Source: Colius striatus (lineage: Eukaryota > Chordata > Aves > Coliiformes > Coliidae). From it: a DNA stretch of 64,000 nucleotides. A model generated the notes under the pieces. It did no database searches and was not told the origin of the DNA. It saw only the letters and a program-made list of their open reading frames with translations. The position numbers were made by a program, and so were the translations under genes. Shown piece after piece: positions 29,901-32,900 of the stretch. The number at the start of each line of letters is the position of its first letter. Position 1 is the first letter of the stretch. The stretch is from positions 11,560,915 to 11,624,914 of the forward strand of contig NC_084771.1 of assembly GCF_028858725.1 (NCBI RefSeq), written 5' to 3'.

Positions 29901-32900
29901 AGGGGGTCTCCCCCGAAGAAGCCGATGTTCTCGCTGACCCAGCGCAGCGCCTGGATCTGGTCCAGCAGCCCATAATTGCCCTTGGCAGCCTGGTCCCCCG
30001 TGCTCAGGAACCCTGCAGGCCAAGGGGAGCTCAGTTAGGGATGAGGAATCATAGAATCGTAGAATGGAAGGGGTTAGAAGGGACTTTTAGAGATTATCCA
30101 GTCCAACCCCTCTGCAGAAGCAGGGTCACCTCGATCAGGTCACACGGGAACGTGTCCAGGTGGGTTTTGAAGACCTCCAAGGAAGGAGCTTCCAGATCCT
30201 CCCTGGGCAGCCTGGGCCAGGGCTCCCTCACCTCAAATAGTTTTTTCTTATGGAAATTTTTGTGTTCCAGCTTCTTTCCATCACCCCTTGTCCTGTTGCC
30301 AGATACCATCGAAAAAAAGGATGCCCCAACCTCCTGACACCCACCATTTTGATACTTATATATATCTAAATGGAGGTTGTCAGGAGGAGGCAGGGAGGGA
30401 GTGTCCTGACCTCCCATCCCACCTTCCCCAGGCCTAGGAGAGCTTCTGTGGGACCCTGTTGCACTCCTACATGAAACCCCACTGCTGAGAGAGTCCTGAG
30501 AGAGTCCTGTGAGCTCTAAGCTGGAGCAGGGACACCACTGAGCTCCAGCCACCCTACACATGGCACAGAGGGGTGAAAGGCTGCGAGTGCAGCTGCAAAG
30601 CCCAGGGAGCCTCTCTGGCCAACTGCAAGCAGTGCCAGGGTGATGAGCATGAAGCCCATCCTACCTGAACCACCACTCATGCCAATAGCGAGTCAGGATG
30701 TCTCACATGTGCCAAGGAAAGCCCAGAAAGCAGTAGTGGCTGCAGGCAGGCTGAGTGCAAGCACAGCCAACGCCTTCCGTGGATTACCGTGGCCTGGAGG
30801 AGGCTCTATAAATGTAAAGAGGTGGGCTGGGCAGAGAGGAACTGACTGCAGCTGAAAATACAGAAGTGTCAGTGAGAAAGATGCTGAGAAATGCTTTCAA
30901 TAGCAAAGGGAACACCCAAGATAAGCCATTAGCCTGTCATTTGCTTTGACTCAAAGCAGGAAGCCAAACCCATGGTTCTGAGGGAAAATCCAGGCAGGTA
31001 ATCCTGGCAGGCAGGGAGCAGCACCAGCCTCATCCCAGCACTGAAGGTGCTCTGGCTGCACTTGAACAGAGATGATGATGGCACCATGAACATCGTACTT
31101 CATATTGTGACTTAGGCCTCTTATATTTGCACTTGTCCATCTTAAAGGCCTGGTTTTAATATTGAAAGGTCTTAAACAGGCTTGTTTTTATGAAAAGTCT
31201 GTCCTCTCTATCAGGTAGCTGCCATCTTCCCCAAGAAACTACGGGGCTCAGAGGCTGTCAGAGGCATGTGCTGCCCCAGGTACTGGCCAGGAGCCCAGCT
31301 GCCTGTGGAGAGTGCTGAGCCAGGTTGGATGGCCAGGAAGAGAATTGACCCTGCCACAGTTTGGCTGAGAAGGAGCTCTCCCCAGACCTCTGCCCTCTGC
31401 CTGCTACTAAGGGAGACAGCACTGATGCTCCAGGCAAAACTCCTGTTCCCCAGTCCCTGGGGGTTTCTGCTGCACCAGGCAAGGGGACCACACTGCCTTT
31501 TGACCCTGTGTCCTCATTTCACCTCTCTAGGTCACCAGTGCTCATGAAAATGGGATGGCCACCCTCCTCTATACAGCACCTGACACCCTTCAGTGATGGG
31601 CTTGTCAGTGTGAGGTTAATGGTTGGACTCGACGATCTTAAAGGTCTTTTCCAACCGTTATGATTCTGTGATTCTATGGTTCTATGACTCAGTGACCTCC
31701 TCTGCAAGCAGCCAGGCCATGGTGGGCGACTGCAGGGGTCCCTGCAGCTGAACCAGCTCACAGGCAGCCCATGCCCAGGGATGGATTGCTGCTGGGTCCC
31801 CACGGGCAGCCAGGCAGTACCCACTGGCAGCTCACTGCCCTGAGCCCTCTCAGGAGATGCTGGATAAACACATTTACTATTTAACCATGGACCAATATTT
31901 ACTTTTAGCTGAGCCACGTTGTGTAAATCAGCCTCGGGGGGCCTGGTGCCAGGAGCCAGACCTCGCCGTGACCACCCAGTGCCACGTGGCACCCTCTCAG
32001 CAGCCAGGGCAGAGGCAGCACAGCCCACGTACCCCCCAGTGCCCCCTTCCGTCAGCGCTGCGGGGGCCCAGCCCTCGCCAGGCAGCCCGTACCGAGCACT
32101 CCAACGCGGTAGTTGAGGGTGATGACGATGACGTTGCCGTAGCTGGCCAGGACGCTGCCGTCTATCATGTTCCCCGTGCCCTCCATGTAGGAGCCGCCGT
32201 GGATATAAACCATCACCGGCTTGGCCCCGCTGTCCCGGATGTCTGCAAGGAGAGCTGGTTAAACACACGACCCCGCTGCCGGCTGCAGCACCCTGCCCCA
32301 CAGGCAGACCAAGGACGAGGGCAATGCCAGCTGCCAGGACTGGGGAGGGGGGCTTAGGAGCCAAAGCCAGAGCTCTGCTGGGGGCCACAGTGTGGATTTC
32401 CAAAGCTGCCCAGCACCGAACCGATGCCACCAGCTCCTTGCCCAGAGGCTGCAGCAGCTGCACCATCCCCACACTGCTGTCGTCTTGGGGCTCTCGGCAC
32501 GTGTGGGAGAGGTGCTGCCAGGACCTGGCTGCCTCTCCCCAGAGCCAGGCTCCAGCTGTGTGAGGGAACCACTCTGTTGTGGGTGGGACTTGCAGGATCC
32601 AGCCCCAGAATGTGGCCCCGTGCCCCATCTCTGGTTGGACCCATGCCCCGGCTCCAGAAGTCCTAGAAGCTGGCATTGTGGGGGGGGCAGGGATGGGGAT
32701 GTGCAGGACCTGGAAGGCAAGGGGGGCACTGGTGGGTGCTCCAATGTCTGACTCTCCCACTCCCACCTTCCCATCCCCCAGGAAGGCAGAAACCTGCCAG
32801 CTGCCTGGAAGTGAACCCATGGCACCCCAGTGCCCAGACACAGACATGGTGATGAGGCAGACAGCGTGTGTGCGCGTGTGTGTGTGTGGCAGGGAGGTGA

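Follow-up and report, generated by a model that had tools for sequence, protein, structure and literature searches.

Two near-identical copies of a 149-bp core lie in the same orientation in or at NLGN3, within homologous flanks that have diverged far more. The window analysed here is the whole 64,000-nucleotide stretch of Colius striatus DNA (C15:11560915-11624914), taken from a 1.21-Gb assembly of 191 contigs. The pair is genuine and is unusual within the 264 kb examined. Judging from sequence comparison, it may stem from a constrained, probably regulatory element that was duplicated within the gene long ago and whose core gene conversion has since homogenised, a tentative reading that we favour while giving it a little less than even weight.

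The core pair and its flanks

Direct comparison of the two cores bore out both the identity and the common orientation given in the first-pass annotation. The cores agree at 147 of 149 sites, and the starts of this direct pair are offset by 21,127 bp. The two mismatches fall at positions 74 and 80 of the core, and at both of them copy A has C where copy B has T; the longest identical run between the cores is 73 bp. The cores belong to a homologous unit of about 300 bp (30687-30985 in copy A and 51812-52130 in copy B), with 57 differences among 295 aligned sites. The longest run with two or fewer mismatches in this unit is 149; permuted differences reached that length in 0/20,000 cases, with a maximum of 83, supporting that the reported contrast between the core (2/149 differences) and the right flank (56/138) is real.

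In five separate comparisons, local alignments of the left and right flanks scored above every one of 1000 shuffles. As controls, 3000 real segments of similar G+C were taken from the surrounding 264 kb. For the right flank, the controls scored as high in 3/3000 cases for the near part and in 0/3000 for the mid part, supporting homology to about 30985, that is, over about 120 bp at roughly 59% identity. The annotation had put this homology at about 150 bases, and the farther part of that claim does not hold, as controls scored as high as the far-right segment beyond 30985 in 521/3000 cases. On the left, where 25 homologous bases and a sharp step had been described, a homologous block of 21 bp was confirmed, separated from the core by 6 bases in copy A and 8 in copy B, including a 2-bp indel. 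The step on this side is not clean, since the block keeps 19 of its 21 sites, and core and block together align with gaps at 169/178 identical sites. Homology left of 30687 was not supported by the same controls (198/3000 as high for the outer left part, 2843/3000 for the far left). A permissive BLAST alignment joined 30594-30997, which is wider than the control-supported unit.

Counted to 31000, about 15 bases past the supported homology, the right flank differs at about 41% of its aligned sites and has 23 gap columns in addition. The Jukes-Cantor divergence is 0.58 for this flank versus 0.014 for the core. The divergence argument uses the right flank because the left count (50/117) takes in an outer part without established homology. 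The right edge of the core is abrupt and coincides with the end of easy alignment, and the left edge is softer. The better-kept islands in the flanks, namely the left block and, on the right, TGACTC and AAAGCAGGA, suggest constraint outside the core; part of this pattern may be due to chance.

Table 1 Features of the core pair and of its NLGN3 setting (window positions)
Feature	Position	Strand	Remarks
Copy A core, 149 bp	30714..30862	+ (gene on -)	NLGN3 intron between exons at ~32.24-32.09 kb and 30.01-29.83 kb
Copy B core, 149 bp	51841..51989	+	Upstream of first coding exon found (42662-42321); probably 5' intron if promoter at 60-61 kb
Left conserved block, copy A	30687..30707	+	19/21 identical to copy B
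Left conserved block, copy B	51812..51832	+	19/21 identical to copy A
Right diverged homologous flank, copy A	30863..30985	+	Better-kept stretch around TCATTT, TGACTC, AAAGCAGGA
Right diverged homologous flank, copy B	51990..52130	+	Homology beyond chance in near and mid parts
CTCF-like match, copy A	30790..30808	+	11.2 bits; lead only, picked post hoc
Splice-acceptor-like sequence, right end of core A	30851..30865	-	Same score in copy B, 51978-51992; lead only
Hypothetical 145-nt exon, copy A	30707..30851	-	Predicted; copy B equivalent 51832-51978, 147 nt
NLGN3 coding pieces	42662-42321, 34299-34240, 32243-32091, 30013-29825	-	More coding sequence downstream

Copy number in the genome and in the surrounding region

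Dispersed near-identical copies usually are repeats, and the first-pass annotation had named hundreds of copies at 98-99% identity, as well as a misjoin or assembly duplication, as findings that would count against it. A search of the whole 1.21-Gb assembly with the core returned two candidates and two scored matches, which are the two window copies, and a 491-bp query around copy B (E up to 10, same assembly) found the identical two places. The genome search skips common words, and its counts are lower bounds. As controls, a connexin stretch recovered itself and 11 further sequences of 70-81% identity (12 matches in all), indicating that homology as weak as about 70% over about 200 bp is within reach of the search, and a CR1-like repeat beside copy A gave at least 7908 candidates, 40 of them scored, indicating that repeats are seen as repeats. 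Because only two scored matches were found for the core while these controls recovered the connexin relatives and the 7908 CR1-like candidates, a repeat-family origin of the core is very unlikely. The many dispersed copies typical of transposable elements are absent (2 scored matches of 2 candidates), so are unrelated flanks: the right flanks are homologous by the segment controls and the left block beats 1000 shuffles. A young transposable element or repeat was rejected on these two grounds. No sign of a misjoin or assembly duplication was seen either, as both copies lie on one contig, yet in differing surroundings, and differ at two core sites. It is thus scarcely credible that the core belongs to a repeat, whether transposable or not, or that the pair arose by misassembly.

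The local base rate was taken as the number of pairs of at least 80 bp and at least 90% identity within the surrounding 264 kb (306 N). Three pairs qualified at the first settings; finer settings gave 4 with a low-complexity filter and 6 without it. The core pair is the only direct non-tandem pair in the 264 kb, the others being three inverted pairs and two tandem arrays.

Several other repeats were noted in the region. The inverted pairs, 90-94% identical, measure 212, 86 and 98 bp and lie at window-relative positions -44420..-44209 with -27192..-26985, -77949..-77865 with -74247..-74162, and -74264..-74167 with 110613..110709. CR1-like pieces, recognised by eye, are found on both sides of copy A (30050-30330 and about 31618-31675), and the former has 39 scored relatives besides itself, at 85-88% identity, among 7908 candidates. 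GC-rich minisatellites occupy 18284-18699 (periods 34/61/95) and 50380-50703 (periods 24/54/104). Exact core patterns gave no match in viral, bacterial or archaeal contigs, as expected for bird DNA.

Setting in NLGN3 and nature of the core

NLGN3 is an autism-linked synapse gene. Its coding pieces place copy A in a 2.1-kb intron, whichever promoter placement holds; in the piece at 34299-34240, 18/20 residues agree with what we take to be the splice-insert peptide. Farther upstream, between 98.3 and 82.4 kb, the same strand carries pieces of MED12. The NLGN3 promoter is therefore probably at 60-61 kb, where one kilobase is rich in CpG (observed/expected 0.93), and this would probably put copy B in a 5' intron. 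Two observations count against this placement. A second CpG-rich kilobase lies at 50-51 kb (0.65), although it contains a GC-rich minisatellite, and according to PMC3910144 mouse Nlgn3 shows no CpG-rich sequence upstream. A promoter near 51 kb would instead leave copy B just upstream of it, outside any intron. The proposed intronic location of both copies therefore stands for copy A and holds for copy B only under the 60-61 kb promoter; the wider claim that both lie inside the probable NLGN3 transcription unit is supported by the coding pieces together with that promoter. The accessible part of PMC1794582 mentions a conserved NLGN3 element at an alternatively spliced exon, and that of PMC3910144 describes no such intronic pair. 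In an open-licence library of papers, searches turned up no earlier description of the core pair and no occurrence of six short core strings. Elsewhere in the window, two adjacent connexin-like ORFs were recognised by eye on the minus strand (14557-15402 and 12859-13917), with mutual matches of 74% over 222 nt and 90% over 73 nt. One of them is presumably GJB1, judged by position.

The core is probably non-coding. In four of its six frames both differences alter residues, and in two, one per strand, both are silent; these two silent frames contain 4 and 1 stops. One minus-strand frame is stop-free across the core in both copies, and both differences alter residues in it. A known RNA family or hairpin was rejected: no Rfam family matched the window at gathering scores, and the fold of the copy A core was not unusual compared with shuffles on either strand (z -0.14 and -0.28). 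The CTCF-like site of copy A, a lead picked post hoc, ranks 8th among 127,964 window positions; in the same scoring, the corresponding site in copy B (51917-51935), with the mismatch at core position 80 inside it, scores 6.8. Most likely, the core would have a cis-regulatory function in both places, for example that of an enhancer.

The presence of a silent frame on each strand leaves room for a coding or exonic reading, in which the core would form an alternative exon, duplicated on the sense strand of NLGN3, poison or truncating in copy A and untranslated in copy B. The acceptor-like sequence scores 8.87 in both copies, within the top 1.25% of AGs on the minus strand and above two scored NLGN3 acceptors (7.61 and 8.05), and copy A has a donor, CAT/GTGAGA (slash at the junction), scoring 7.36. 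Moreover, the near-identical core starts 11 bp ahead of the first exon base, the donor-like GTGAGA falls within the left conserved block, and the phase-1 end of the upstream exon at 32.24-32.09 kb leads into the silent frame of the minus strand. Read in this way, copy A would add 22 residues and then meet a stop at core codon 26. However, the corresponding donor of copy B scores only 3.63, a donor-like site on the plus strand (7.63) is also present in both copies, and the phase fit has a 1/3 chance. Two C/T differences six bases apart are easily silent in some frame, as they are in one plus-strand frame, and coding would leave the equal conservation past the stop unexplained. The splice candidates were chosen post hoc, and the exon is a prediction from sequence. 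We consider such an exon improbable; it concerns function and could be combined with either selection or conversion.

Selection, gene conversion and known systems

For a pair of this kind, gene conversion and strong selection, between which the annotation had asked for a choice, appear to be the right alternatives, and they are not mutually exclusive. At about 2e-9 neutral changes per site and year, the right-flank divergence of 0.58 would represent roughly 145 million years. Living birds are younger than that, and both copies are therefore expected throughout the group. The core divergence of 0.014 is about 40 times below the flank rate, and a reduction of this size falls inside the range usually quoted for ultraconserved elements. 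Purifying selection could thus have kept two elements of ultraconserved grade independently unchanged since the duplication. Paralogous elements are, however, under no need to remain identical to one another, and the right edge is more abrupt than the usual conservation profile. In addition, the available text of PMC5836973, citing Derti et al., states that segmental duplications containing ultraconserved elements are apparently not tolerated by genomes, which also argues against selection acting alone. Selection by itself is therefore unlikely, although it keeps appreciable weight.

At the other extreme, a single recent non-allelic conversion of about 150 bp under little or no selection, with the two differences as newer mutations, would fit the 149-bp tract, the abrupt right edge and the fact that only two differences, both C/T, are present. 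It requires sufficient homology in the past, however, and today 56 of the 138 aligned right-flank sites are mismatched; the need for homology between diverged sites again implies earlier constraint on the core. We regard this event as distinctly unlikely.

The abrupt right edge at the end of easy alignment, together with the islands suggesting long constraint, favours continuing conversion on a constrained core. Under this preferred reading, an NLGN3 stretch of about 300 bp or more would have been duplicated long ago in direct orientation, with one duplicate now ahead of the first coding exon, probably in a 5' intron, and the other in the intron before the 30.0-kb exon. Identity in much of the flank would then have fallen to about 59%, with the core retaining its function at both sites. 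Because the core remained similar, non-allelic gene conversion could have gone on acting there, and the mismatched flanks would have drifted and sharpened the boundary. Selection and conversion may thus act jointly to keep the two copies nearly identical across 21 kb of one gene. Two observations bear on the conversion step. A 73-bp identical run is short for efficient non-allelic conversion. Furthermore, the core is not clearly enriched in G+C as predicted under biased conversion, the comparison being mixed: 0.544 in the copy A core versus 0.544 in its intron, 0.58 in its left flank and 0.467 in its right flank, and 0.530 in the copy B core versus 0.55 across 48.9-54.9 kb, 0.487 in its left flank and 0.400 in its right flank.

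A broader possibility is that conversion confined to the functional core has kept two elements of one vertebrate synapse gene, either regulatory elements or twin poison-type exons, in concerted evolution and near-identical over very long times. We hold this to be possible but rather doubtful. If both copies are old, the pair would serve as a natural experiment on what keeps non-coding DNA from changing, as selection and conversion predict different patterns over bird genomes at two defined 149-bp sites. A matched element pair in NLGN3 would also be a concrete target for work on regulation or splicing.

Among known systems, the pair resembles the duplicated conserved non-coding elements of vertebrates in having two homologous, apparently non-coding copies from one duplication, with a best-kept core and decayed edges. 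Those elements usually lie beside different paralogous genes and differ by far more than 1.3%, whereas both copies described here are in or at one gene. It would also resemble poison exons in that copy A, if spliced as hypothesised, brings an in-frame stop; unlike in poison exons, the donor of copy B is weak and copy B precedes the first coding exon, the splicing itself being predicted from sequence. Near-zero core divergence beside more variable flanks is shared with ultraconserved non-coding elements as described in the available text of PMC5836973, where these are defined between species (at least 200 nt, more than 95% human-chicken identity), whereas the NLGN3 core measures 149 bp and is known from one genome. 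The conversion pairs BMP8A/B, DDX19A/B and TUBG1/2, in the accessible part of PMC2720389, are likewise old duplicates with high-identity tracts inside diverged sequence. They involve exons and introns of separate genes, whereas the NLGN3 tract is 149 bp long, lies within one gene and is known from one genome; for such pairs, the same part of PMC2720389 gives cross-species comparison as the criterion that parts concerted evolution from purifying selection.
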